Below the pieces are notes generated by a model that was not told where the DNA came from, searched no databases, and worked only from the letters and a program-made list of their open reading frames with translations. Shown here piece by piece: positions 2,174-26,322 of a stretch of DNA of 26,322 bases. Every line of letters starts with the position of its first letter. The stretch's first letter is position 1. The position numbers and the translations under genes were made by a program. Location: positions 1 to 26,322 of IMG/VR virus record IMGVR_UViG_3300037228_000171, one strand, 5' to 3'. The DNA is from a virus.

Positions 2174-2509
2174 TTAGTGGAAAAGGTGCCTGCCGACACC
2201 AGCGAGGACCACTTGCGCGCAGGCTCTCGGGGTAACCAGCCCCGAGCCGATCGCCACGCCGGGGACAAAGCCGGCCGCAACCACTCGACCATTCGCTGGA
2301 GACGGACGTGTCGAGCTTTGCCAGACGTGGGCGCCGATGTCCGCGCCACGTCGAACAAACCAAAAGGTGGGCGCCGTGGCGTTGCGGATCGCCCGCGCCC
2401 GCTCGCGCGCCGAATCGTGGAAGACGGCGCACGAGATCTCCGAGCGATTGCCGGCATGGAGGAAATGCCGTCCAGCGCTCGAAAACGATAAAGCAAGATT
2501 CGCGTTCAT
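2174..2509 (-). CDS. Hypothetical 111-aa protein coupled to the terminase gene
   Basis: The ATG at 2509 overlaps the stop of the large terminase gene in the form ATGA, the coupling seen throughout this operon. This selects the frame among several overlapping open frames here. The protein begins MNANLALSFSSAGRHFLHAG and is small, basic and without recognisable domains. An alternating aliphatic C-terminal half (VVAAGFVPGVAIGSGLV) could be a beta structure or a weak hydrophobic segment. Position after terminase suggests a phage structural or packaging accessory, but this is inference only. Confidence 0.5.
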   Translation of the reverse strand: MNANLALSFSSAGRHFLHAGNRSEISCAVFHDSARERARAIRNATAPTFWFVRRGADIGAHVWQSSTRPSPANGRVVAAGFVPGVAIGSGLVTPRACAQVVLAGVGRHLFH

Positions 2510-4092
2510 ATGTCCTTGACCACCCCGCCGATCTTCAGCGCGCGGCGCCAAAGCGCGCCGGGCTCAGGCGCAGGCCGCGAAAGTTCTGCGCCTTTCTGAT
2601 CGTGCTGATGAAGTAGATTTGTAGTCGGTGCGGCTGACGTGGGCGGCGCGGCCGGCGGGGCTTTCAATTCTGCAGCGTAGTAAGCGAGCAGACCCGCCCC
2701 GGGCGGCCGCCTGATGCGTTCCTGAAGGCTATAGCGTAGGGCGTCAATCGTGTGATCGTTCCCGGGTTTTGGATCCGGCAACACTTCGCCTGTCGTGCGA
2801 TCAACCTTATAGCTGTAGAGCTTAGCTTCTTGCGCCACATGCTCACAGCGCGTGTGAATCACGATCTTCGCGAAACTGCGCAACGTCAGGATTCCGTCTT
2901 GAACGCTGCCGTCCCATTTTGCACAGCTCCTGACGTTTTCGTAATCGTGACCGCGTAAGTGATTGATGATCTCCGGACGTGAATTGTCGGCATAAATCAC
3001 GCTGTCGCGACTGCCGGGCACGGTGCCGAGCAACTTCGGCAGGCGGTCCAATGGCAGCTCGATCGCGTAGGCTTCATGAGTCACATACAACGTATTCGTT
3101 GCCGCATCGAGGAAGGATTTAATCAACGCCGTGGGATCAACCGAGAATCCAAAATCAAGACCCATGAATGGCCCGGCCCAGTCCGAGCTGATCTCGAAGT
3201 CCGCGATTTCGTACTTGCCTTTCAATACCTGAGCATCAGAGTGCTGGCGCAATTCACCGGCCCAAACATGGTTGTAGCTGTCCAGATCGACGCGCTTGAG
3301 ATAGTTGGCCTCGGCCAGCGTCTCGATCGAGACCCACGGATTGTCGGTGTAGTTCAGTGAGGCGCTGATTGTGTTCGGCGGCGTGTTCAACCTGAAGCGC
3401 ACATAATTTGGGTCATCGCTTAAATCTGGGTTTGATGTCATTAAAATCATCGAGCCGGGTTTTCTAATTGTTGGCAACAGCACGCTCCAGCTCGCCTCGC
3501 TCAACTGCTCGGCCTGCTCGACCCAGCAAACGTCAATGCCTTCGAGCGACTTGATCCTCTGGACGTTGGCGTACATTCCCTCGAATAAAAACAGCGCACC
3601 AGTGTGCGACGTGATGCTGTTGGCCTGCACCTCGAAGTAGCGGTCGAGGTTCATCACTTCGATCTGATCTGCGAGCAGGCGCAGTGCGCTGTCCTTAAGT
3701 GATCGTTGTATTTCACGCAGACACAAGACGCGAATCGGTTCCACAAGTCCGCGCAGCAATAAGGCACGCACTGTCGCCCACGACTTGGTGGAGCTGCGGC
3801 CGCCGAACAAATCAATGTTACGTGCGTGGTGACTGGGGTGCAGCGCCGCGAATGCCTTGGGCGCGAATGTCACGCTCTGCGTGCCTTCTGGCACATCAAA
3901 GCCGAAAGGAACGGCACACAAGACTCGGCCGGTCCAGTTACGCCGCAGCCCGCGAACGCGAGCGCCGAAACGCTCTGCTGACTCACCGATTGCAGCCCAC
4001 ACCACGATCGGCGAGGTACGCGCGCTCTCACGCGCCGAGATCACTTGCTGTGCGCGCTTGATGATGGCGGCCGGATTGGACAGTGGCATCAT
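2506..4092 (-). CDS. terL: Phage terminase large subunit (PBSX/Terminase_3 type)
   Basis: This is the packaging motor, which pumps phage DNA into the prohead with ATP and cuts it. Of 528 residues, the ATPase part shows Walker A GGRSSTKS (97-104; the more usual form is GGRGSGKS), Walker B IDVCWVEQAE (186-195) and coupling motif ILMTSNP (216-222). The nuclease part shows GLDFGFSVDP (D313), YADNSRPE (D369) and NDHTIDALRY (D447, D450), a complete acidic set. About 75 N-terminal residues precede the usual start of homology, and no later Met offers a better start. The C-terminal 60 residues are proline- and alanine-rich. It follows a 229-aa gene by 11 bases and overlaps the next gene. No portal gene follows, which is unusual. 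Confidence 0.93.
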   Translation of the reverse strand: MMPLSNPAAIIKRAQQVISARESARTSPIVVWAAIGESAERFGARVRGLRRNWTGRVLCAVPFGFDVPEGTQSVTFAPKAFAALHPSHHARNIDLFGGRSSTKSWATVRALLLRGLVEPIRVLCLREIQRSLKDSALRLLADQIEVMNLDRYFEVQANSITSHTGALFLFEGMYANVQRIKSLEGIDVCWVEQAEQLSEASWSVLLPTIRKPGSMILMTSNPDLSDDPNYVRFRLNTPPNTISASLNYTDNPWVSIETLAEANYLKRVDLDSYNHVWAGELRQHSDAQVLKGKYEIADFEISSDWAGPFMGLDFGFSVDPTALIKSFLDAATNTLYVTHEAYAIELPLDRLPKLLGTVPGSRDSVIYADNSRPEIINHLRGHDYENVRSCAKWDGSVQDGILTLRSFAKIVIHTRCEHVAQEAKLYSYKVDRTTGEVLPDPKPGNDHTIDALRYSLQERIRRPPGAGLLAYYAAELKAPPAAPPTSAAPTTNLLHQHDQKGAELSRPAPEPGALWRRALKIGGVVKDI

Positions 4093-6728: not shown

Positions 6729-8294
6729 TCATTTTTCCTTGAGCCTCCAGACGGCGGTTTTCTTGTGTTTGTCGTCGCGGTTGATCAGTTTGAATCCGCC
6801 CGTCACCCGGTCGCGGTTGCTGCGCAGCCAGTGCCCGATGCTGTTGGCGTCGTTGGCATCTCTGCACCCGGCGGCCCCCAACGCCGCGCGCAGATCGGCG
6901 GCGACGACTCCCATCTCCCCGGTAATCTGTTTGGCGGTGAATTCGCCCGTGCCGTACAGAGCCTCGATTGCGGCGAACGCCTCTTGCAACGCATCGCCCT
7001 CGTCATCGGTCTCAGTCTCTTGAGTCTCTACCGGATCGGCCATGCCGAGCCACACCAGCGGATCACGAATGGCGTGTGCCCAGCTCTCAAACGACTCTAT
7101 GGCGCGCACGCCTTCGATCTTGGGTGCTCCCGCGACGGCATACGCCTTGATGATGGTGAGCGCGGCCACAAGTAACTCGGCCCGGTGTTCGCTGACATGA
7201 TCCTTGAGATTCGCGATCCTGAACGTGCGGCCACGGGCTGATTCGGCGTTGATATCCAGTCGGCACACCAGAGCGCGCCGCGCCAGATCCCCGCATGGCG
7301 TGATGTTGTTGCCGGTCACGCTCACCAGCAGAGTGTTCACCAGACTGGTGCTGTCGCTCTCGCCGAGCTTGCGGTCGCCATAGACTGACGCGGTGGCGAA
7401 GGCGCAGAGAACCGATGATCTAAATTTGGCGCCGTTGGGCACGTTGTCGATCAGTAGACTCGCATCCCCCGCCAGAAGCGATCCGAGCAAAACCTTGCGC
7501 CGTTCCTCTTCCTGCGAAGCATACGGCCGCACTGCCGGCAAGTTGCCGGTGGCGATCAGGCTCGCCACTTCACATAGCAGAGTCTTGCCGTGCGCCGCAC
7601 TGGGCGCGCTGTAGACCAGCACCGGGCTTGTCGGCAACGTCGCGCGCACCACTGCGGTAAGAATATGCGCGATGAACACACTTTCGGCCGCCGATGTCTT
7701 GGCGAACGGGAACTCATCGAACGGCGCGCGCAATACGTTGAGCGCCGCTTGCGCGTGCTCTTTTGTAGGCGACTGCGGTATCGGTGGGAATGCTTGCGAC
7801 GGCTCGTAATAGATTCCTGTCGCTGCGTCATAGCCTGCCGTCTCGCACACGCTAAAATCTGGACGCAGAAACGGTGCTCGTGCAATGGCGGTCAATGGCC
7901 GCCAGTGTCTTGACTCGGCCACGTTGGCGATGTTCGTGGCCAGACTTGTCGGACAGTCCATGCCGAACCATTTTTTGCCGCGAGCATCGTATCGTTGGAA
8001 GCGTGCGCGGCGTGTCAGCTCGCGGCGCAGATAGTCCACGTTCACGGCCACCATCACCGACTGGCAATCGTGGCGCACGATCCCCAGTGCTTTGGGCAGC
8101 TCCACTGCTTTGCCCAGTCGCACCAGTGCGCCGCCGCGCAGATACACATCGGGTGCCATGACGGCCTCGGCGGCGTCTGCACTATTGTGCAGCTGCCCGG
8201 CCCGAATACGAATCACAGGCAGCTCATCATCCGCATACGCATCGTCGGGCGTGCGCTCGAAGTCATCCGCGCCGATGTCTGGCTTGGTGCTCAT
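6729..8294 (-). CDS. Phage/mobile-element replication ATPase (AAA+, primase-helicase-like)
   Basis: The 521-aa protein has a central AAA+ core. Walker A-like YSAPSAAHGKTLL lies at about 228-240 (GKT 236-238), Walker B ASLLIDN at 278-284, a sensor-1-like segment LLVSVTGNN at 322-330 and an arginine-finger-like LARRALVCRLD at 337-347. The TGNN...GDLARR...RLD pattern is typical of ATPases in phage and plasmid replication proteins that follow a primase domain. No catalytic primase motif is obvious in the N-terminal 190 residues. The C-terminal 100 residues look like a winged-helix domain. The ATG at 8294 overlaps the previous stop. The likely role is helicase loading or unwinding at the element's origin. 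Confidence 0.78.
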   Translation of the reverse strand: MSTKPDIGADDFERTPDDAYADDELPVIRIRAGQLHNSADAAEAVMAPDVYLRGGALVRLGKAVELPKALGIVRHDCQSVMVAVNVDYLRRELTRRARFQRYDARGKKWFGMDCPTSLATNIANVAESRHWRPLTAIARAPFLRPDFSVCETAGYDAATGIYYEPSQAFPPIPQSPTKEHAQAALNVLRAPFDEFPFAKTSAAESVFIAHILTAVVRATLPTSPVLVYSAPSAAHGKTLLCEVASLIATGNLPAVRPYASQEEERRKVLLGSLLAGDASLLIDNVPNGAKFRSSVLCAFATASVYGDRKLGESDSTSLVNTLLVSVTGNNITPCGDLARRALVCRLDINAESARGRTFRIANLKDHVSEHRAELLVAALTIIKAYAVAGAPKIEGVRAIESFESWAHAIRDPLVWLGMADPVETQETETDDEGDALQEAFAAIEALYGTGEFTAKQITGEMGVVAADLRAALGAAGCRDANDANSIGHWLRSNRDRVTGGFKLINRDDKHKKTAVWRLKEK

Positions 8295-10159: not shown

Positions 10160-10859
10160 TGGTGGAGTCCGCCACCTCCCGGATCCCGGACGTGCCGGAT
10201 ACAGGCGGCGTGCTGACACGCAACCCATCGACGATTGCCCGCAGCTCGGCGGCTGTGAAGCGCTCACGCGCGGCGGCGACGAAGCCCTCAACTGTAAATA
10301 GCCGTTCGGCCTCTTCCTCAAGGCGCGCTTTAATCTCGTCCTCGCGTAGGTCCTGCAGCGTCCGTTTGACGCTGTTAATTGCTCTGCTGACTAGCCGGTC
10401 GAACTTCGTTTTGGCCGGTTCGGCTAGCTGGTCGCGGCACTCGGTTATGACTGCACTCGCAGCCTCGGGGATTGCTTTTGCGTTCTCGACAATCTTCAAA
10501 TACGCAGCAGTTGCGCTTTTGGCCGCCGCGATCGCCGCCAGCATGCCGCGAAAAGTCAATAGGTCGAACTCGTCGGCTCGCTCTGGATGGGCCAAAGCGT
10601 ACTTGGCGATCCGCATGTATACCTGTGCGGTTCGTTCGGATAACGAGCAGTTGGTTGCGAGCCACTGCAGCCAGCGGCCGTGCTTCTTCAGCTTCTGCTT
10701 AGCTTGCAGCAGCAGTTCCCCGGCGGCACGCGCCCGACGCGCGACCAAGCCAGCGTGCTCGCGCACTGCGTCATGTTCGGCCTTGATCCGAGCGGCCAGA
10801 GCATCGAGTGACAGAGCTTCCTCGTCAGGTGCCGTCGGCGCGACAATGACGGCGCTCAC
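10143..10859 (-). CDS. DUF3102-type protein
   Basis: The GTG at 10859 overlaps the stop of the preceding HTH gene as GTGA, giving 238 residues. The N-terminal half has the DUF3102 pattern: IKAEHDAVREHAGLVARRAR, then GELLLQAKQKLKKHGRWLQW and LSERTAQVYMRIAKYA. This family is common in phages and plasmids and is thought to bind DNA through its HTH-like helices. The C-terminal half is a long charged helix region (about 130-215), followed by a polar tail. Its place just after the first gene of the operon fits a regulatory or replication role. Confidence 0.7.
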   Translation of the reverse strand: MSAVIVAPTAPDEEALSLDALAARIKAEHDAVREHAGLVARRARAAGELLLQAKQKLKKHGRWLQWLATNCSLSERTAQVYMRIAKYALAHPERADEFDLLTFRGMLAAIAAAKSATAAYLKIVENAKAIPEAASAVITECRDQLAEPAKTKFDRLVSRAINSVKRTLQDLREDEIKARLEEEAERLFTVEGFVAAARERFTAAELRAIVDGLRVSTPPVSGTSGIREVADSTSDRRH

Positions 10860-11092
10860 GATGCACCGCCAGCGCGCTTGGGCGGCTGGGCCAGTCGCGC
10901 CAGCTCTCGGCCCGGCACATACACGCGCCTGCCGTCCTTGATTATTTTGAGCTTCTTGTCCTTGATGAGCCGGTGGACCCAAGCACGGCAACAGCGCAAG
11001 TACGCTGCCGACTCTGGCATTGAGTAACGCTGATTTTTATCAATTGCAGCGAGCCCGGCTTGGGGCGCTGCGGCCTTCGATGGTTTCGACAC
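10856..11092 (-). CDS. Excisionase-like HTH protein, first gene of the leftward operon
   Basis: I chose the GTG at 11092, which has GGAG six bases upstream. The annotatable alternative is TTG 11104. The protein has a lysine/alanine N-terminus and then a HTH_17-like domain: RYSMPESAAYLRCCRAWVHR, LIKDKKLKIIKDGRRVYVPG. Such small winged-HTH proteins act as excisionases or operon regulators. A related sequence is encoded at 13450-13680 (shared QRYS/T.PE, LK.I.DGRR.YVPG). It opens the leftward operon and faces the integrase gene across the att region. Confidence 0.7.
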   Translation of the reverse strand: MSKPSKAAAPQAGLAAIDKNQRYSMPESAAYLRCCRAWVHRLIKDKKLKIIKDGRRVYVPGRELARLAQPPKRAGGAS

Positions 11093-11312
11093 GTCCGTCT
11101 CCAAATGTGATGACGGACACCTACCCTATAGATCAGAAAAGGCGTGTCTATCGGCACGCTGTGCCGGTTTTCTGGCCGTGAACTCTATAAGTTCCTGAAT
11201 CCGAATAAGAAAACAAGCGAGGACAAGTTACGGTCAATGTGATTCTGAGTTACCGATAACTTTCCGAAGTTCGTATTACGAACTATCTAACTAACGTAAG
11301 ATGTTGATTAGA
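11093..11312. promoter_or_regulatory. Intergenic region with the presumed leftward promoter
   Basis: No gene is seen here. The region must hold the promoter of the leftward operon. A TATAGG-like -10 on the minus strand lies at about 11126-11131, but no well-spaced -35 was found. A plus-strand hairpin with stem CGGCAC/GTGCCG (11152-11157 and 11161-11166) is followed by GTTTTC and could be a weak terminator or an operator. The base composition is more AT-rich than in the surrounding genes. Confidence 0.3.
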
Positions 11313-11356
11313 TGGCGCTCCCTACGAGATTCGAACTCGTGTTACAGCCTTGAGAG
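11313..11356 (-). repeat. tRNA-Glu(CTC) 3'-half fragment: phage attachment site
   Basis: Read on the minus strand, the 44 bases match the layout of the 3' half of tRNA-Glu: a seven-base anticodon loop CTCTCAA (anticodon CTC), stem GGCTG, variable TAAC, T-arm ACGAG-TTCGAAT-CTCGT, acceptor strand AGGGAGC, discriminator G and CCA. The segment lengths equal those of a bacterial tRNA-Glu. The 5' half (acceptor GCTCCCT, D-arm, anticodon stem CAGCC) is not upstream, so this is not a functional tRNA gene. Fragments running from the anticodon loop to the 3' end are typical attachment cores of tyrosine integrases, and an integrase gene starts 145 bases away. Confidence 0.75.
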
Positions 11357-11368
11357 TGCTCCATGATG

Positions 11369-11500
11369 TAAACAGCCGCAAATTTGAGTAAGCGTAAATC
11401 ACTGTATTTATGGACTTTATGTAAGTAACAGTAAATTGTCGTAAACTTCTGGCAGCTGCGACACTTACCTAAACTTACCTAATCCGTAAGGAATACAGCC
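11369..11500. promoter_or_regulatory. GTAA-type repeats before the integrase gene (possible arm sites)
   Basis: This AT-rich stretch between the tRNA fragment and the integrase start contains many GTAA/TTAC motifs on both strands, including GTAAGCGTAAATC, GTAAGTAACAGTAAATT and GTAAACTT. It also holds a perfect tandem repeat ACTTACCTAA at 11463-11472 and 11473-11482. Integrase arm-type sites and excisionase sites usually lie in this position. AAGGA before the GTG at 11501 is the integrase ribosome binding site. Confidence 0.45.
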
Positions 11501-12709
11501 GTGCAAAAAACTGTACGCCTCGACACCCGAGAGCAGCGCAAGCGCCTGCCGTCGCGGCACGATCCCTACTACGTCGACGTGGCCAAAGGCGTGGCCATTG
11601 GCTATCGCAAGGGCGTGACCGCCGCAACCTGGTCGCTGCGCCGATATAACGGCTCGAGGTATCACAAGCGCGAGATCGGCCACGCGGACGATGACCAGCC
11701 TGCCGACGGAGTGCGTGTGCTTTCCTGGCCGGATGTCGTGAAGCTCGCTGTTGTCGAGCCCGCTCGGGCTGACGCCTACGCAGCGAAGTATTCGGTGAAA
11801 CAGTGCGCCGCCGACTATTTCGCGCACCGGCGCGCGCGCAGCCGCAGTGCAGAGTCGATTGCTATCGATGACGGCAAGGTCAAGTCGTTCGTTGAGAAAT
11901 TCGGCGCCGATCAGGTTTCATCCCTGACGACCAGCGACCTGCAGGCCTGGCGCGATCAATTGGTAGTCCAGCCTGCAGCCGATGCCACCGAGGCAGAGCG
12001 CAGGGACTCACTGCGCGCCTCCCAGGGCACCGCTAACCGCACTTGGTCGATTGTCCGCGCGGCCCTCAATCACGCATTCCGGAGCGGCCGCGTGGACAAC
12101 GATCTGGCCTGGCGGCGTATCCAACCATTCCAGGACGTTGATGAGGCGCGCCGGCGGTTTCTGTCGGTTGCTGAAGCCAACAGGCTGCTCGGAGCCTGCC
12201 ACGGGCAGTTCCGCGATCTGGTGCAGGCGGCGCTGCTCACTGGCCTGCGCCCCGGCGAGCTCGCGCGGCTCACGGTCGGGCAGTTCCAGAAGACGCGCCT
12301 CGAAGTGTCAGCGGGCAAGAGCGGTAAGAGCCGATTCGTGCCGCTCACTTCGCAGGGCGTCGCACACTTCAAAAGACTGGCCAGGAAGGGCGCACCGTCG
12401 AGCCTGATGCTCCCGAGCCCAAACGGGAGCGCCTGGTCTCGAATGCAGGTAGCGCGCGCTATGCGTGAGGCCACCGCCGCGGCCGAGCTCGACACCCCTG
12501 CCGTGTTCTATGACCTGCGGCGCTCCTACGGCTCGCTGCTCGCAAATGCCCAAGCCTCAGACGCCACGATCGCGCACGCGCTCGGGCACGCCGATACGCG
12601 CATGACCCGCCGGCACTATGCACACCTGCTAGACAGCGTGGTCGCGACCGAGCTGCAGGCGAAGCTGCCAACGTTCAGGGCGCGCGCCTCGCGCAAGGCG
12701 GCGACATGA
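11501..12709 (+). CDS. int: Tyrosine-type phage integrase
   Basis: The 402-aa enzyme integrates and excises the element by strand exchange at the att site. It has an N-terminal arm-binding region (about 1-100), a core-binding SAM-like domain (about 100-205) and a catalytic domain. Catalytic residues are R250 (TGLRPGE), K273 or K276 (AGKSGKSR), R340 (YDLRRSYGS), H363 (LGHADTRMT) and the nucleophile Y373 (RRHYAHL). The usual first histidine of HxxR is Y337, a substitution that seems tolerated in some integrases. The GTG start has AAGGA eight bases upstream. It reads away from the adjacent tRNA-Glu fragment and overlaps the next gene as ATGA. Confidence 0.93.
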   Translation: MQKTVRLDTREQRKRLPSRHDPYYVDVAKGVAIGYRKGVTAATWSLRRYNGSRYHKREIGHADDDQPADGVRVLSWPDVVKLAVVEPARADAYAAKYSVKQCAADYFAHRRARSRSAESIAIDDGKVKSFVEKFGADQVSSLTTSDLQAWRDQLVVQPAADATEAERRDSLRASQGTANRTWSIVRAALNHAFRSGRVDNDLAWRRIQPFQDVDEARRRFLSVAEANRLLGACHGQFRDLVQAALLTGLRPGELARLTVGQFQKTRLEVSAGKSGKSRFVPLTSQGVAHFKRLARKGAPSSLMLPSPNGSAWSRMQVARAMREATAAAELDTPAVFYDLRRSYGSLLANAQASDATIAHALGHADTRMTRRHYAHLLDSVVATELQAKLPTFRARASRKAAT

Positions 12710-14755: not shown

Positions 14756-15673
14756 ATGAGCGAGCGCATGCGACTGGCGAGCTACGCGCGTCACTTCGGC
14801 GAGCGCGTAGCTGGGCTCTCACCCAACACACGTGCGCGCTACGCATCAGAACTGCGCCGACACATCCTGCCGGCGCTCGGCGCACGCCCGCTCGAGCGAA
14901 TCGATGCTACCGTCGCGCAGCGATTCCTTGCGACGCTGCTGCAGCAAGAGAAACTCGCCGCTGCCACCATTTGCAGCGCAGGGCATCTGTTGCTGCGCGT
15001 ACTCAAATCCGCGGCCGCCGAAGGGCATCGGGCGCACGCGATCGATGCTCGTGCTCTCGTGTGGCCGCGCGAGCAACGCGCCAGAGCCGAGCCGCGCGCG
15101 TTTTCCAGAGAAGAAACGGCGCGCATCCTGGCTCACGCGCGCCCGAGCTGGATACGCACGCTTTTCGCGCTGTTGGCGATGACGGGTTTACGCGCCGGCG
15201 AGGGTTTGGGACTGGATTGGAGCCACGTCGAGCTCGAAAGCGCGATGCTGCACGTGCGACAGCAAGCCAGCCGCGGCCGACTGCGCACGCTCAAGTCACG
15301 CGTGAGTGCCGCGGATCTGCCGCTTCACCACGAGCTGCAGCCGATCCTGGCCGAGTTCTGGCGCGAGCAAGGCTCTCCCAGCGCTGGCCTGGTGTTTGCC
15401 GGCGCAGGCGGCCTGCCGCGAGCCGCCACGGGCATCGCGAGCCGACATCTGACACCGCTGCTCGTGAAGCTCCAGATCCCGCATGCGGGTCTGCATGCGT
15501 TTAGGCATGGCTTCTGCAGCGCGTGTTGGCAGGCAGGGTTGCCAGCCGACACGATCCGTCGCCTGATGCGTCACAGCACCCTGGCGATGACGTTGAGATA
15601 CAGCCACACCGCTGCGACGGAACTGCGCGCCGGCGTCGATCGACTGACCTGGCCGTTGAGCGCATCCACGTGA
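14756..15673 (+). CDS. Second tyrosine recombinase (XerC/D-like)
   Basis: The 305-aa protein has a core-binding domain (about 5-105, LSPNTRARYASELRRHILPA) and a catalytic domain with the full set R146 (TGLRAGE), K180 (TLKS), H247 and R250 (HAFRHG), H273 (MRHSTLAMT) and Y282 (LRYSH). Its length and lack of an arm domain make it more like Xer recombinases than like the 402-aa integrase upstream. It lies between replication and packaging genes rather than at an element end. It may resolve dimers of the element or be a remnant of an inserted second element. The ATG at 14756 was chosen as the first in frame. Confidence 0.88.
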   Translation: MSERMRLASYARHFGERVAGLSPNTRARYASELRRHILPALGARPLERIDATVAQRFLATLLQQEKLAAATICSAGHLLLRVLKSAAAEGHRAHAIDARALVWPREQRARAEPRAFSREETARILAHARPSWIRTLFALLAMTGLRAGEGLGLDWSHVELESAMLHVRQQASRGRLRTLKSRVSAADLPLHHELQPILAEFWREQGSPSAGLVFAGAGGLPRAATGIASRHLTPLLVKLQIPHAGLHAFRHGFCSACWQAGLPADTIRRLMRHSTLAMTLRYSHTAATELRAGVDRLTWPLSAST

Positions 15674-16108: not shown

Positions 16109-16272
16109 GGCCGAATGCGATAGGCCTGGTGTTTCCAGGTTTGAATCGCTCGGGTCCTTATCGGCACCCCATCATGCCGCGGGTCGGGCGACCGCGATTC
16201 GCGACCTTCGATGATCAAAAAAAGTCACTGAATTCTGAGTTCTCGACATCAAATAGTCGGAGCACAGCGTGA
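16105..16272 (+). CDS. Possible 55-aa coupled protein
   Basis: The GTG at 16105 overlaps the previous stop as GTGA, and the TGA at 16270-16272 overlaps the GTG of the small-terminase gene in the same way. Coupling at both ends favours a real gene. The protein begins VRPNAIGLVFPGLNRSGPYR and ends in a Ser/Asn-rich tail. It lacks a recognisable domain. It may serve only as a translated linker. Confidence 0.4.
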   Translation: MRPNAIGLVFPGLNRSGPYRHPIMPRVGRPRFATFDDQKKSLNSEFSTSNSRSTA

Positions 16273-16847
16273 TACATCGCAAACGCGTCAAACAGCAGCG
16301 GCAGAAAGAGGCTGTAAAACGAGCCAAGAAGCGCGCATCGAATGAGCTTCGTGTGCCGCGCATCAACGCAAAGCAGCTCGCGCGGATCTTCGCTGTGAGC
16401 CAGGGCTTGGTCTCGACCTGGTTGAACGAAGGTCTCCCAGCGATTCGGCCAGGCCGAAGCGGCGCCGTGGTTTTGATCGATCTGATGCGCGCTTGCCCAT
16501 GGATCCTCGCGCGCACCGGCGAGGCAGCGCCCGATAGCGCACTGGGAATTGCGCGCGTGCGCTTCGAGACAGCGCGTGCGGAAAAGTTTGAACTCGAGAA
16601 CGCGCGAAGGCGCGGCGAGCTGGTGCTGCTATCGTACGTCAGCGAAATCATGAACGAGATGGCGGCCGACCTGGGCGCACGCCTCGATGCGATCTCGGGC
16701 CGCTGTGCCAATGAATTCGCCGGGATTACCGATCCCGCGCTACTGCGACAGCGACTCCTGCAGGAGTGCCGCGCCGTGCGTCTCGGTGCTGCCGAGCACG
16801 TTCTAAAGCTGGCCAATACTCCGCCCGCCGGCGAGGCCTCGAGCTGA
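16269..16847 (+). CDS. Phage terminase small subunit, Nu1-like
   Basis: The 192-aa protein has a basic N-terminus and a winged-HTH (INAKQLARIFAVSQGLVSTW, LNEGLPAIRPGRSG, about 33-65). A long helix follows, with the Nu1-type pattern RFETARAEKFELENARRRGE (about 98-117), then LVLLSYVSEIMNEMAADLGA and a C-terminal helical region. Lambda Nu1-type proteins bind cos DNA and recruit the large terminase. The start is GTG 16269 with GGAG six bases upstream. No large terminase follows. The only one in the window is at 2506-4092 and is of the PBSX type, not the lambda GpA type. Confidence 0.7.
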   Translation: MIHRKRVKQQRQKEAVKRAKKRASNELRVPRINAKQLARIFAVSQGLVSTWLNEGLPAIRPGRSGAVVLIDLMRACPWILARTGEAAPDSALGIARVRFETARAEKFELENARRRGELVLLSYVSEIMNEMAADLGARLDAISGRCANEFAGITDPALLRQRLLQECRAVRLGAAEHVLKLANTPPAGEASS

Positions 16848-16849
16848 TT

Positions 16850-17278
16850 GTGCACGCGGAAGCGATGCGCGTTGCGGAGGCCGCGGCCGAGCTTGGCGTG
16901 CGACCCGATACGCTGCGCGCCTGGATCCGGCGCGGTGCACCAGTTGTGCAGCCAGGCTCACCGGGACCAGGCCGCGGTGCCCTGGTCGATCTGGATGCTG
17001 TGCGGCGCTGGCGTGCTCGCGGCGCCGATGGCGCGCCGGCGCTGGCCATAGATGCCGAGCTCATTGCCCGGGGCGCTATGGCGGCGTTTCGTGATGGGAT
17101 GCACCGTGATTACGGTCTCACCGACCGCCAGGCCGCGGGCCTAATTTCGGAAGTCTGGGCCCACATCGTGCGCGAGGCGTCAGGAGGACACCCTCCGCGC
17201 GAACCGTGGCCCGAGCAAATCGCGACGCTCATCGCGATTGCGCAATCATCAATCATTGCGGTCAGCCAACTGGAATAG
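16850..17278 (+). CDS. Winged-HTH protein after the small terminase gene
   Basis: The N-terminal part, MRVAEAAAELGVRPDTLRAW then IRRGAPVVQP, is a HTH domain like those in Nu1 and MerR-type proteins, and a second acidic-basic segment is followed by a helical C-terminus. Starts at GTG 16850 and ATG 16865 are both possible; the latter has GGA close by. It begins two bases after the terminase stop. The tandem of two HTH proteins suggests that both recognise element DNA. Confidence 0.6.
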   Translation: MHAEAMRVAEAAAELGVRPDTLRAWIRRGAPVVQPGSPGPGRGALVDLDAVRRWRARGADGAPALAIDAELIARGAMAAFRDGMHRDYGLTDRQAAGLISEVWAHIVREASGGHPPREPWPEQIATLIAIAQSSIIAVSQLE

Positions 17279-17296
17279 CGTGGAGGACCAGATCGA

Positions 17297-17491
17297 ATGC
17301 CGATCACGATGGCCTATAACGCCGCCAAGCGCGAGGCGACGTTAAGCGAGGGCGACAGCGGCTTGACCTTCAAGGTGCGCAACGTGACCCTGGCGAAGGC
17401 GATCGAGTGGCGCGATAAGCACTCGCCAGAGTTCTTCCGCCGGCGATGCCGCATGCACTCGTTCGGCGGCACCGTCCAGCGCCAGGCCTGA
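17297..17491 (+). CDS. Hypothetical 64-aa protein before the capsid gene
   Basis: The ATG has GGAGG nine bases upstream, a strong site. The protein begins MPITMAYNAAKREATLSEGD, is charged and ends in a basic stretch (EFFRRRCRMHSFGGTVQRQA). No domain is recognised. It lies 54 bases before the capsid start, where scaffold or head-accessory genes often occur, but the product is too short for a protease. Confidence 0.5.
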   Translation: MPITMAYNAAKREATLSEGDSGLTFKVRNVTLAKAIEWRDKHSPEFFRRRCRMHSFGGTVQRQA

Positions 17492-17545
17492 CATGGCTAC
17501 GGCAAAGGATCGCACTCACTCGCTTTGGTCGTGAGGAATCACAAC

Positions 17546-18775
17546 ATGCTGCTAAACGAAAAAACAAGACACGACATCCTCGATGAGGCGCAGGCCGTAT
17601 CGGCATGGGAACGCATGAAGGGCGCGATCGAGTTTCTGCGACCGGCGGGGCGCCCGCGCTTCGCCGCCTCTCCTGCGGAGACGCTACCGGCCTTGGTCGG
17701 ACTGAGCGAGCGCGAGATCCGAAATTACTCCGTACTCTCCATGGTTCGGCACGTCGCGGCCAATCATGACGGCCGATGGCGAAAAATCCCGACGTTGGAG
17801 ACCGAGTGCACGCTGCAGATCGAAATGATGCTGAACAATCAAGCGCGCGCTACGGACGGCTTCTTCGTTCCTTACGAGATACAGCGCAGATCTTTTCCAA
17901 TGACGCGCGCGGACACGGTGGGCGTCGGTGCGGCCGGCGGCTACCTGGTGGCGACCGAGCTCGTGAGCTTCATCGATCTGCTGCGCAATCGAACGGTGGC
18001 TTTCCGGCTCGGCGCTTTTGCGCTCTCCGGACTGGCTTACCGGGCGGGCCAGGGCAACATTTCAATTCCGAAGCTCACGGGAGCCGCCACCGCATCCTGG
18101 CTCGCGAGTGAAACCGCGCAGGTCAATGGCGGCAATTCGAGTAACCAGGCGTTTTCGCAACTGTCGCTCTCGCCGCACAACGTGGGCGCCTACACCGAAA
18201 TCAGCCGGCAGCTGCTCATGCAGTCGACCCCGAGCGCTGAGGCACTCGTGATGTGGGATCTCGCAGCCGTCATTGCGATCGCTCTGGATGAGGCCGCGAT
18301 CAACGGACCAGGTACGGACGGCGCGCCTGTCGGCATCCTCAACACGCCGAACGTGCAAGCCTTCGGCGGCACTGTCTCGACAATTCCGTGGGCGAGTTTG
18401 CTTGCGATGGAAGCCGACCTGTTGACTAGCAACGTGCCCATGACCGCACCCGCATGGGCATCAACGGTAGCTATTGCGCAGGCGCTCGCAGATCGTCAGA
18501 CGTTCGCCGGCGGCTCGTTGCCGATCTGGGCGGGCTCACTCGTTGAAGGCACGATCAACGAAAACCGCGCAATGAGCTCTGGCCAAGTTCCGAGTGGGAC
18601 CCTCATCCTCGGCGATTGGAATCAAATGGTCATCGCCGACTGGGGGCAGCTCGAGATCGAGGTCAATCCGTACGCAAACTTCCAGGCCGGCCTCATCGGC
18701 GTGCGCGCGATTGCCGGTGTGGATATTGGACTGCGCAACCCCGCGGCGTTCTGTGTGGCAACTGGCGTGACATGA
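17546..18775 (+). CDS. HK97-fold phage major capsid protein
   Basis: The 409-aa product is the main shell protein of the phage head. The C-terminal 290 residues show the HK97-family course: VGVGAAGGYLVATELVSFID, then NISIPKLTGAATASWLASET, SQLSLSPHNVGAYTEISRQL, DEAAINGPGTDGAPVGIL and a terminal FQAGLIGVRAIAGVDIGLRN. The first 120 or so residues form the delta/scaffold-like region usually removed by a protease, but no protease gene is present. The ATG at 17546 has GAGGA eight bases upstream. No portal precedes it. A terminator-like hairpin follows. Confidence 0.88.
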   Translation: MLLNEKTRHDILDEAQAVSAWERMKGAIEFLRPAGRPRFAASPAETLPALVGLSEREIRNYSVLSMVRHVAANHDGRWRKIPTLETECTLQIEMMLNNQARATDGFFVPYEIQRRSFPMTRADTVGVGAAGGYLVATELVSFIDLLRNRTVAFRLGAFALSGLAYRAGQGNISIPKLTGAATASWLASETAQVNGGNSSNQAFSQLSLSPHNVGAYTEISRQLLMQSTPSAEALVMWDLAAVIAIALDEAAINGPGTDGAPVGILNTPNVQAFGGTVSTIPWASLLAMEADLLTSNVPMTAPAWASTVAIAQALADRQTFAGGSLPIWAGSLVEGTINENRAMSSGQVPSGTLILGDWNQMVIADWGQLEIEVNPYANFQAGLIGVRAIAGVDIGLRNPAAFCVATGVT

Positions 18776-18918
18776 GGTTTTTGTCCCCGGCGTGTCATCC
18801 GCCGGCGCGGTTGAGCCGATCGAGACCGTGGAGCATGAAACATCGACGGCTGCAGACGTGCGAGCGCCCTTCTCGATATCCGCCGCGCCGAACCTGCCGT
18901 TGATACACGAGACGATCA

Positions 18919-18960
18919 GGCAGAGGGTGCTAGCACGTGCTCATCCTCTGCCCCTTTTTC
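18919..18960 (+). terminator. Rho-independent terminator after the capsid gene
   Basis: GGCAGAGGGTG (18919-18929) pairs with CATCCTCTGCC (18942-18952) with one mismatch. The loop itself contains the palindrome AGCACGTGCT. CCTTTTT follows directly. This is a good intrinsic terminator signature 140 bases after the capsid stop. It would separate capsid from tape-measure transcription. Confidence 0.7.
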
Positions 18961-18997
18961 GAATTGACCGCACAAGCGCCGCGGCCAATGCCCGAAA

Positions 18998-19028
18998 CCC
19001 GGCGCGGCGCGGATCTAGCCGCGCCGGG
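18998..19028 (+). promoter_or_regulatory. Perfect GC-rich hairpin before the tape-measure gene
   Basis: CCCGGCGCGGC (18998-19008) pairs perfectly with GCCGCGCCGGG (19018-19028) around a nine-base loop. No T-run follows, so it is not a classic terminator. It lies 23 bases before the ATG of the tape-measure gene. It might control mRNA ends or translation. The 276-base capsid-to-tape gap holds this, the terminator and no convincing gene. Confidence 0.45.
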
Positions 19029-19051
19029 CGTAAGGCAATAAAGGACCGCAA

Positions 19052-21595
19052 ATGGCCGGCAGTAAAGACTTCAAATTAGCATTCGGCGTTGACATCAGCG
19101 AGCTCGCGTCCGGGCTCGCCAACGCGCAGGCGGCTGTCACCGAGGCGGCGTCCACCATGAAGGAGGCGCTTTCGGGAGTGCAAGAGGCCTTCAGCATGGT
19201 GGGGCAGGCGGCGCTAGCGGTCACGGCGATCATGGCGGGCGGGGCGGCCTTCAAGGAGATGGTCAGCGCGGCCGTCGGGCTCAATGTCTCCTCGATGGAG
19301 CTGGGCAAGCAGTTCGGCATATCAGCCACGCAGGCCTCCGTTCTGAAGGTCGCGCTCGGCGAGACCTTCCTCACGCAAGATCAGCTCGCCTCGGCCGGCC
19401 AGCGCATCACGCGCACTCTGAATACCAACGAGGGCGCATTCAAAAACCTGGGCGTCGCCACGCGCGACTCGAACGGCAATTTCCGCTCCACGCTCGATAT
19501 CATGACCGACGTCAATGCGCGTCTGCTCACCTTCAAGGAGGGGACTGACCGCAACGTTGAGGGCACTAAGATCTACGGGCGAGGGTGGGCCGAGGTCGAG
19601 CCGATCCTGCGGCTCGTAGCCGCGGCATTGGCGCAGGCTCAGAAGAACGCCACCGAGCTCAACCTCGCGGTTTCGGCCGAAGGGGAGGCAGCGACCAAGC
19701 GCTATCGCGATTCGATGGCGGCCCTCGATGAGGTAATGCAGGGCGTGCGCAACACCATCGGCGAGGCGCTGCTGCCGGTGCTGAGCTCGATCGGCGAGTG
19801 GTTCCGCGAGAACGGGCCGGCGGCAATCGTTATCACACGTGCCTCGATGGCGACTCTTGGGGCGGTGTTCATCACGATTCGCGAGAAGGGGCAGGAATTC
19901 GCAGACGCAATCTTCGGCGCTTTTCAGAATGTCAGCTCGCGCATGAACGAGCTCGTCTCGATCGTCATGACCGGCGCGCACCTGATTGTGGATGCCTTTA
20001 AGCTCGCCAAGACCGGCAGCACCGGAGACGTGTTCGGCAGCCACCAGGTGCTCGAAGACATGAAGCGCGATTGGGCGGAAGGAGCCGCGGCGCTCAAAGG
20101 CGGCACCGAGCAGCAGCAGGAGATCTACAAGCAATATCTGGCGAACATTCAGGCGGACCAAAAGACCGCGGCCGACTCGATGGCGGCGATGGAAGCGAAT
20201 ATCTTCCAGGACAAGACGCCGACGCAGAAGCCACCTCCCGGATCTACATCGGATGGCGGCGCGAAGAAGGCCTCGCTCATGGCGCAGTGGGAGAACGAGC
20301 TTGCGCAAGATAAGGTCGGCTACGAGCAGAAGGAGGCCCTGCAGGGTTCCTTTCAGGAATTCAGCAAGCAGATGGAGCTCGCCTTCTGGCAGGAGAAACT
20401 CTCGAGCGGGGCAGCCAAGGGCGCGCAGGAGGTCGAGCTCGAGAAGAAGGTCGCGGAGCTGAAGCTCGCCATCAACAAGCAGGCATTCGAGGCGCAGCTC
20501 GCATCGCTCAAGGAGCAGGAGGCCAGCTTCTCGAAGAACGCCGAGGCTCGCGTGGCAATTGCAAAGCGCGAAGCCGACGAGATCGGCGCGGCCTATGGCG
20601 CCATCAGCCCGCAATACGAGGCGGCGTTGAAGCACGTCACCGAGGTCGAGCGCCAGGCGCTCGAGCAGCAGCGCCAAATAGCAGAGATCTATCTGCACGC
20701 GGACCTGGAGCGCCAGCTCTCGAGCGTGGAGGCCGACGAGAAAGCGCTGCAAACGAAGTACGCCGATCACTTGATCTCCGCGCGCCAGCTCGAGGACTCA
20801 GAGATCGCGCTGGAGAATCGGCGCACCGAGATCTCCGAGGCCGGCATCCGTCAGCGCATGGCGCAGGTGGATCCGCAGCTCGACCCCGTGCTGTATGCGC
20901 AGCTTAATGCGCAGATCGAGGCGCTCGAGACGCAGCACCAGACTCGCCTCACGCAGATCGAGCAGACTTCCGTCAAGCAGCGTGAGGCCCTGGAGAAGCA
21001 GGGCTTCACCATGGTCGAGAACGACTTCAATTCCGCGATCAATTCTATGGTCAAGGGTACGATGACCTTTCAGAACGCGATGAAGTCAATGCTGCGCGAT
21101 GTCCTCACGGGGATCATGGACATGCTGCTCAAGTGGGCCGAGCAGTGGGCCATGACGCAGATCATGAACATGCTCTCGGCCAAGACCACGAATACGCAGT
21201 CCGTCGCGGGCCAGGCGGCCGTCGCCGGCGCCGCCGGCGTCGCGTCCTGGGCCGGCGCGCCCTGGCCGGTGGACATAGGCGCGGCTGGCTTTGGTGCGGC
21301 GATGTACGCCGATGCGATGGGTTATGCCGTGGCGGCGGCCGCGCAGAGCGGCTATGACATTCCAGCCGGCGTGTCCCCGCGCACGCAGCTGCACCCGCGC
21401 GAGATGGTGCTGCCGGCCGACCTGGCGGATGTCGTGCGCTCGGTGGCAGGCAGCGGCGGAGCTCGCGGGGGCACGACGAACGTGCGCATCGCGGCGCTCG
21501 ACGGCGCTTCACTTTATCGGGTGGTCACGAAGAATCCGGCACAGTTCGCCAAGGCAATGAAGCGCATCAGCGGCACCGGGCACAGCTTGCGATGA
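19052..21595 (+). CDS. Phage tail tape-measure protein
   Basis: The 847-aa protein would set tail length and help pass DNA into the host. The N-terminal part (about 1-100) is Ala-rich helical, GVDISELASGLANAQAAVTE onward, with hydrophobic stretches. About 370-680 is coiled coil rich in Glu, Gln and Lys (KKVAELKLAINKQAFEAQLA and similar). The C-terminal region has hydrophobic segments (LRDVLTGIMDMLLKWAEQWA) and an Ala/Gly stretch typical of tape measures. The ATG has AAGGA six bases upstream. Siphophage tape measures are often this length. No other tail gene such as a major tail protein is adjacent. Confidence 0.85.
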   Translation: MAGSKDFKLAFGVDISELASGLANAQAAVTEAASTMKEALSGVQEAFSMVGQAALAVTAIMAGGAAFKEMVSAAVGLNVSSMELGKQFGISATQASVLKVALGETFLTQDQLASAGQRITRTLNTNEGAFKNLGVATRDSNGNFRSTLDIMTDVNARLLTFKEGTDRNVEGTKIYGRGWAEVEPILRLVAAALAQAQKNATELNLAVSAEGEAATKRYRDSMAALDEVMQGVRNTIGEALLPVLSSIGEWFRENGPAAIVITRASMATLGAVFITIREKGQEFADAIFGAFQNVSSRMNELVSIVMTGAHLIVDAFKLAKTGSTGDVFGSHQVLEDMKRDWAEGAAALKGGTEQQQEIYKQYLANIQADQKTAADSMAAMEANIFQDKTPTQKPPPGSTSDGGAKKASLMAQWENELAQDKVGYEQKEALQGSFQEFSKQMELAFWQEKLSSGAAKGAQEVELEKKVAELKLAINKQAFEAQLASLKEQEASFSKNAEARVAIAKREADEIGAAYGAISPQYEAALKHVTEVERQALEQQRQIAEIYLHADLERQLSSVEADEKALQTKYADHLISARQLEDSEIALENRRTEISEAGIRQRMAQVDPQLDPVLYAQLNAQIEALETQHQTRLTQIEQTSVKQREALEKQGFTMVENDFNSAINSMVKGTMTFQNAMKSMLRDVLTGIMDMLLKWAEQWAMTQIMNMLSAKTTNTQSVAGQAAVAGAAGVASWAGAPWPVDIGAAGFGAAMYADAMGYAVAAAAQSGYDIPAGVSPRTQLHPREMVLPADLADVVRSVAGSGGARGGTTNVRIAALDGASLYRVVTKNPAQFAKAMKRISGTGHSLR

Positions 21596-21963
21596 TCACG
21601 GCGGAGATTCTAGTTTTTGATCGCGATCTGCCCGATCAATTGTTTGTGCTGCGGCGCCAAGCGACCAGGGCTCATGGGCCAGGCTTTTCGAAATGGCTGG
21701 CGAAGCTAGATCTGGGTCGCTTTCTCGTGGTCATTGATGGCGCCGAGCAGCCCTACGTCAATATTGCAGACGAGGCCGAGCTCGTCAGTGTCATCGGCCT
21801 GCAATACCTCGAGCTGATGAGGCGGGCCCGGGAAAATGGCGGTGATGGACGCCTCGACTTTCATATTCACGCCGGAGTTACGCCCGAGATCGAGGCGAAA
21901 CTTTCCCAGCTCTGGGAGTTGACTCAGAAGAAGTTCGCCGCCGGCGGAGGATCAACAGACTGA
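21592..21963 (+). CDS. Hypothetical 123-aa protein downstream of the tape measure
   Basis: The ATG overlaps the tape-measure stop as ATGA, so it is translated with it. The protein begins MITAEILVFDRDLPDQLFVL and appears mixed alpha/beta, with a helical C-terminal third (EIEAKLSQLWELTQKKFAAG). In siphophages this position is usually a minor tail or tail-tip gene, but I see no known motif. It is the last rightward gene before a convergent hairpin. Confidence 0.6.
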   Translation: MITAEILVFDRDLPDQLFVLRRQATRAHGPGFSKWLAKLDLGRFLVVIDGAEQPYVNIADEAELVSVIGLQYLELMRRARENGGDGRLDFHIHAGVTPEIEAKLSQLWELTQKKFAAGGGSTD

Positions 21964-25689: not shown

Positions 25690-26322
25690 CTACGGAAGTT
25701 GCGTTATCGCCTTGACGACAAAGTGTTGCGCCATGGCGAGGGTGTCAGGACTCCACTGCCCGTCCCACGCGATATCCACGTAAAGTGGCTTGGACTGCAT
25801 CTGATCGCAGACGGCTACGAGTTCGAGTACTACACGGGTGTTCGGACGCACGGACGCGTCCAGGTTGTTTGGTGCGAAAACCAACTGGATTGCAGCGCCA
25901 ACGTTTTCGATAACGTTGACCAAGTCATAATTCGCGTCCGGCCCAATCGTGGCGAGGCGAGGAAGTGTGTGCTGATGTTGTCGAATGAGGGGGAGCGCGC
26001 CGGTGATTCCTTGCAATAGACCCACTTGAGGAAATTGGCCGTGACCGGTGGCGCGGATCAGCTTTGTCACCACCACATGTGCATTGGTTGCCACTGCGTG
26101 GGGTCGCCGGTTCTTGACGACGACGTGGTAATACCTGGCAGCTTGTCCGCCAGCCAGATTGATTGCTTCCCCAGCGGGATCGAGTAGGGAGAGCTCAAGC
26201 TCGGTGCCCACGAGACGGCGCCGAATGGGTTCGCCCCATGTGGCGAGTATGGCGACCGTGATTGTGCCTAGCGCTGCCGCGCCGGTTATGCACTCCTGGA
26301 TCAAAAATTGTTCCGGACTCAT
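25690..26322 (-). CDS. Single-helix membrane protein, unknown function
   Basis: The ATG is the last codon of the window on this strand, so the upstream region cannot be seen. Residues about 10-30 (ECITGAAALGTITVAILATW) form one membrane helix, and the remaining 180 residues form a beta-rich domain (YYHVVVKNRRPHAVATNAHV, LVNVIENVGAAIQLVFAPNN). The likely topology is N-terminal anchored. Proteins of this build occur next to mobile elements and defence genes. No enzyme motif is seen. It converges on the PIN gene. Confidence 0.6.
   Translation of the reverse strand: MSPEQFLIQECITGAAALGTITVAILATWGEPIRRRLVGTELELSLLDPAGEAINLAGGQAARYYHVVVKNRRPHAVATNAHVVVTKLIRATGHGQFPQVGLLQGITGALPLIRQHQHTLPRLATIGPDANYDLVNVIENVGAAIQLVFAPNNLDASVRPNTRVVLELVAVCDQMQSKPLYVDIAWDGQWSPDTLAMAQHFVVKAITQLP

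Follow-up and report, generated by a model that had tools for sequence, protein, structure and literature searches.

The 44 bases at positions 11313 to 11356 of the window (the whole 26,322-bp stretch of viral DNA analysed here) are the displaced 3′ half of a tRNA-Glu(CTC) gene, and sequence comparison supports them as the attachment-site core of the adjacent tyrosine integrase, which would target the anticodon loop of that tRNA gene. The attachment site itself is ordinary biology, here displayed in unusual detail. As to its setting, we consider it somewhat probable that the site is a tandem junction, that is, the seam of two mobile elements at one tRNA-Glu gene. The features of the site are as follows.

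11313..11356, minus strand: attachment core, the displaced 3′ half of tRNA-Glu(CTC), nucleotides 33–76 (exact matches to tRNA genes)
11350..11356, minus strand: CTCTCAA, the 7-nt anticodon loop and presumed strand-exchange (overlap) region, where the tRNA identity starts
11463..11482, minus strand: putative integrase-side doubled arm motif, TTAGGTAAGT-TTAGGTAAGT, 10-nt spacing (from comparison with relatives)
11248..11268, minus strand: putative distal-side arm pair, TTCGGAAAGTt-ATCGGTAACT, 11-nt spacing (from a matrix made of relatives only)
11501..12709, plus strand: tyrosine integrase (402 aa), cognate to the site (PF00589, E=1.7e-23)
14756..15673, plus strand: second tyrosine recombinase (305 aa; PF00589)

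Read on the minus strand, the core is CTCTCAAGGCTGTAACACGAGTTCGAATCTCGTAGGGAGCGCCA, and it spans the anticodon loop to the CCA of a 76-nt tRNA-Glu(CTC), with the anticodon at nucleotides 35–37. When about 85,000 GTDB species genomes were scanned for exact copies, 11 contained all 44 bases. Ten of these matches are intact tRNA-Glu(CTC) genes, in which the identity begins at nucleotide 33, where the anticodon loop starts; the eleventh, in G001:C13, is another displaced 3′ half without a 5′ half. Because ten intact genes and one displaced half match all 44 bases, a chance match is excluded. The preliminary description had read the fragment as the 3′ half of tRNA-Glu(CTC) lacking its 5′ half and adjoining an integrase gene, and both points hold: the identity to the 3′ part of the tRNA is 44/44, and a PF00589 gene starts at 11501, 145 bp away. 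In alignments with tRNA genes, the 5′ side of the core (TACATCATGGAGCA) does not continue into the 5′ half. ARAGORN finds no complete tRNA in the 26,322 bp, and no second copy of the 44 bases occurs there. The anticodon loop is flanked by a partial inverted repeat, AGC...GCT, and by analogy with the known (A) subsite (PMC4383910), the crossover would be placed at this loop. A 33-nt piece of the core has no match in viral contigs other than its own record, and no close DNA relative of the window was found among phages and plasmids.

The integrase of the window shares 42% of its residues, along the whole protein, with the one that adjoins these 44 bases in G001 and 44% with that of L069, a circular viral record described below. 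Its homologues adjoin tRNA-Glu halves in G001, in Steroidobacteraceae-family genomes and in viral contigs; in the latter two, a half of tRNA-Glu (CTC or TTC) commonly lies a few hundred bases upstream of the related integrase. The viral-contig relatives came from an alignment of several integrases, and single-protein scans of viral contigs with the integrase or primase gave no confirmed relative. Residue 337 of the window integrase, in the HxxR box, is Tyr, where six of six aligned relatives have His. The other positions that we take to be catalytic, as in tyrosine recombinases generally, are retained (R250, K273, R340, H363 and Y373), and an enzyme with such a sequence may be active or inactive. 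The second recombinase is unrelated to the first by BLASTP. A two-integrase system shared with G001 was considered and dropped, as the second integrases of the window and of G001 cannot be aligned.

The architecture to be expected around such a site can be read from three complete chromosomal relatives (G001:C13, G114:C5 and G114:C65), each of which consists of the displaced half, the integrase, the body of the element and then an intact tRNA-Glu on the same strand. This agrees with the preliminary description, which had proposed an attachment site with the element followed by the intact same-strand tRNA. In G001:C13, the intact tRNA-Glu(CTC) is at 48–123, 25.5 kb from the displaced half and at the other end of the element. 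The 25.5 kb encode BrxA, BrxL, PglZ, a BrxC-like protein and a methylase, together with two integrases and a VapE-like replication protein; the element is a BREX island whose exact limits are tRNA-Glu(CTC) at one end and the displaced half at the other. The T-stem reads CCGG in the regenerated tRNA and CGAG in the displaced half; this difference would follow from an element that supplied a 3′ half of its own, with the crossover 5′ of the T arm. The two other elements are smaller, 6.4 kb at a tRNA-Glu TTC (G114:C5) and 13.8 kb at a tRNA-Glu CTC (G114:C65). The sequence after the CCA often resembles AAATCAATGACTTACG in L006, L007, L011, L022 and L030, even at apparently unoccupied tRNA-Glu genes; such 3′ flanks may be scars left by past integrations.

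As the preliminary description had stated, both flanks of the site carry phage genes. We find a large terminase subunit on the left and a capsid protein and tape measure on the right. The principal genes, apart from the two recombinases, are listed here from left to right.

2506..4092, minus strand: terminase large subunit (TerL), left element (PF04466, phrog_3717)
6729..8294, minus strand: primase/helicase-like protein, left element (phrog_29234, phrog_19930)
10856..11104, minus strand: HTH_17 protein, first gene left of the site (PF12728, E=3e-9)
16269..16847, plus strand: terminase small subunit (TerS, Nu1-like), right element (phrog_57, PF07471)
17525..18775, plus strand: major capsid protein (MCP), right element (PF05065, phrog_617)
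19052..21595, plus strand: tail tape-measure protein (TMP), right element (phrog_2854)

The left genes are all on the minus strand and run, from the site outwards, through the HTH_17 protein, a DUF3102 protein, a ParB/Dam-like methyltransferase, the primase/helicase and an endonuclease VII to TerL. The HTH_17 protein is a candidate excisionase or regulator of the left element. A possible ORF at 1508–2167 contains three copies of a short IRKIHxRGP-like motif and has no family match. The right side carries the integrase, a replication-initiation-like protein, the second recombinase, the Nu1-like TerS, an HTH/TerS-like protein, the capsid protein, the tape measure and a PIN-domain protein. Family searches of the scanned right-side proteins recognised no portal, protease or tail-tube protein.

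Sites of the attP type typically carry arm-type integrase sites outside the core, and putative doubled arm motifs occur on both sides of this one, at −126 and +44. On the integrase side, the four complete elements (the three chromosomal ones and L069) have a doubled 10-nt motif 126–132 nt from the core, and the window has the 20-mer TTAGGTAAGTTTAGGTAAGT at 11463–11482, position −126. Only one other contig of the viral collection contains this exact 20-mer, namely L069, where it again adjoins half of a tRNA-Glu gene and a homologous integrase. None of 296 genomes in the order of G003, a Steroidobacteraceae MAG, contained an exact match to the 17-nt integrase-side arm pattern. On the distal side, a matching arm lies 43–46 nt beyond the CCA in the complete elements and 32 nt beyond it in the circle L069. 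The distal pair of the window, TTCGGAAAGTTATCGGTAACT, is 44 nt beyond the CCA, the same offset as in G001 and L006. It was revealed only by the matrix built from relatives, which gives P ~0.0001 for the expected position and 0.0009 for any position within the flank.

Because this arm pair sits at the offset and spacing of the relatives, the left flank is taken to be the end of an element, not plain host DNA. One could suppose that only the right-hand element integrated at tRNA-Glu and that the left flank consists either of an old, unrelated prophage or of host DNA with phage genes, given that the left module stops at TerL and is followed by non-phage-like ORFs, with no integrase seen among them. 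That would leave a significant arm pair at exactly the relatives' offset and spacing to be accounted for, and in three integrated elements no arm motif is present on the side of the displaced half that faces host DNA; we regard this explanation as very unlikely. The arms bear similarly on the possibility of a chimera, in which assembly fused two elements at the 44 bp they share. Short identical cores are natural misassembly points in metagenomes, but 44 bp is well under a typical read length and both arms are in register with the relatives, so that a chimera seems extremely improbable.

Whether the two flanks belong to one element or to two can be approached by comparing the arm sets with each other. 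The integrase-side and distal arms agree at 18–20 of 20 positions in the four complete single elements, while shuffles reach 15–16. The two arm sets of the window agree at 15 of 20, fewer than in any of the four single elements; as a direct comparison this is not significant, since shuffles there reach 16. The lower agreement suggests that the left arm comes from another member of the family. The ends of the record point in the same direction. Positions 1–3 are the ATG of a 108-aa plus-strand ORF, and at 26320–26322 a 210-aa minus-strand ORF has its start codon; of the remaining whole records that were compared, L070 alone has a gene boundary at each end. The record was probably cut as a provirus from a longer contig at gene boundaries, and we therefore count its ends against a free phage genome.

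The preliminary description had offered two elements in tandem or an unintegrated attP. Both have precedents, and it is the arm comparison and the trimmed record ends that favour the tandem arrangement over the attP of a single element. Such an attP would belong to one phage or satellite spanning both flanks, either circular or integrated elsewhere through the second recombinase at 14756–15673. Its precedent is L069 (IMGVR_UViG_3300050821_015984), an 8,809-bp circle with a 98-bp exact terminal repeat, in which a tRNA-Glu(CTC) half has element genes on both sides; as noted, its integrase is related to that of the window and the 20-nt integrase-side arms are identical. The presence of both arms at the correct spacing and of two recombinase genes in the window would also suit a single element. 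Against it, besides the 15/20 agreement and the trimmed ends, the window record has no terminal repeat, and the window has no unassigned ORF of typical portal size, as a complete phage would require. We think a single attP possible, although unlikely.

For the tandem junction, the precedent is in the IMG/VR records L085 and L089, which have another integrase gene directly on the far side of the displaced tRNA half, an arrangement consistent with tandem elements. By this scheme, the right element, X (integrase, replication gene, TerS, capsid, tape measure), would have integrated at tRNA-Glu(CTC), displacing the old 3′ half to its far end and leaving a regenerated tRNA-Glu to the right of the window. 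Immediately to the left of the core would come the distal arm of another element, Y (HTH, primase, TerL), related to X and either already present in the same tRNA gene or inserted there later. At the seam, Y's distal end would meet the displaced core of X. To the right of 26322, an intact minus-strand tRNA-Glu(CTC) would be expected, followed by distal arms near TTAGGTAAGTnTTAGGTAAGT, and Y's own fragment and integrase would lie to the left of position 1. Beyond the core identity, the integrase homology, the arms on both sides and the geometry in relatives, which are direct observations, we infer that the two sides are different elements and that the intact tRNA is outside the window.

Several observations run against the tandem junction. 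The window shows element-type DNA to the left and to the right of the fragment, with an arm pair and phage genes in each flank, but it shows one tRNA-Glu fragment with its integrase, and the left 11.3 kb contain neither another tRNA-Glu fragment nor an integrase that could belong to Y. The arms of a single element could have diverged; two of the four controls are at 18/20. Composition does not separate the two sides, the left-to-right distance being no larger than the distances within each side. Tandem arrays are also a minority in the Islander collection, 125 among 3,919 islands (PMC4383910).

The right element raises a further question about its gene content. Compact modules of capsid and tape measure, with TerS or a head protease, occur in three divergent elements: the window (16269–21963), L066 and L069. 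Neither a portal nor a tail tube was recognised in the compact modules of any of the three. In L066 (G207:C140, a chromosomal contig), the order is the same as in the window, with a helicase-like gene, TerS, an HTH gene, capsid, a small ORF, tape measure and another small ORF; in L069, a head (maturation) protease, capsid and tape measure adjoin one another. The closest relative of the capsid protein is in L107, at 67%, where TerS, a terminase-like 633-aa ORF (identified by eye) and the capsid gene are close together. L109, part of a 52.6-kb record, has homologues of the window's TerS, the small ORF at 17297, capsid and tape measure in the same order, spread over about 17 kb. It is conceivable, as a rather doubtful proposal, that the right element represents an undescribed satellite group with its own capsid and tape measure and no portal or tail tube, borrowing the rest from a helper, and integrated at tRNA-Glu in tandem with an element that carries TerL. 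Alternatively, the compact modules may have arisen by repeated deletion from ordinary phages such as L109. A literature search found no text on satellites with a capsid and tape measure but no portal. If they are real, such satellites would be a new way to divide virion parts between satellite and helper.

The nearest described satellites are the capsid-forming PICIs (cfPICIs), to which only the right half of the window bears likeness, in having an integrase, a replication gene, TerS and its own capsid gene. As generally defined, in part after PMC11389934, a cfPICI has its own head genes, including portal and protease, and no tail genes. The right half departs from this in having a tape measure and in the lack of any family match to portal or protease among the scanned proteins. 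The attP of the HE-PICIs (PMC10111431) is comparable in a different respect, since its crossover is bracketed by two doubled motifs at fixed distances; its motif, TGTATTGC, and its distances are not the same, and it targets prophage late genes.

The site provides a clear anatomy of core, doubled arms and spacings for an integrase family that uses tRNA-Glu genes, and the comparison of the arms on the two sides gives a hint, from letters alone, by which a tandem junction in a metagenomic record might be distinguished from a free attP. Through tRNA-Glu genes, the same integrase family moves BREX islands, satellite-like circles and phage modules. In the Islander set of tRNA-targeting islands and prophages with the (A) subsite (PMC4383910), which includes 2,083 anticodon-centred sites, the tyrosine integrase, the same-strand displaced 3′ tRNA fragment and the anticodon-loop crossover are alike, and tandem arrays are known there; here, by comparison, the intact tRNA is outside the record and the arms of the two sides differ. 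L069 shares the tRNA-Glu(CTC) half, the homologous integrase, the identical integrase-side arms and the capsid and tape-measure genes, and it differs in being an 8.8-kb circle with a head maturation protease, with TerS and TerL not recognised and with distal arms that match its own integrase-side arms. The island of G001:C13, in the Deltaproteobacteria MAG BP6.bin67, has the same 44-bp core, a 42%-identical integrase and the same geometry and arm offsets, but it carries BREX defence cargo in place of phage structural genes, and both of its ends are visible.
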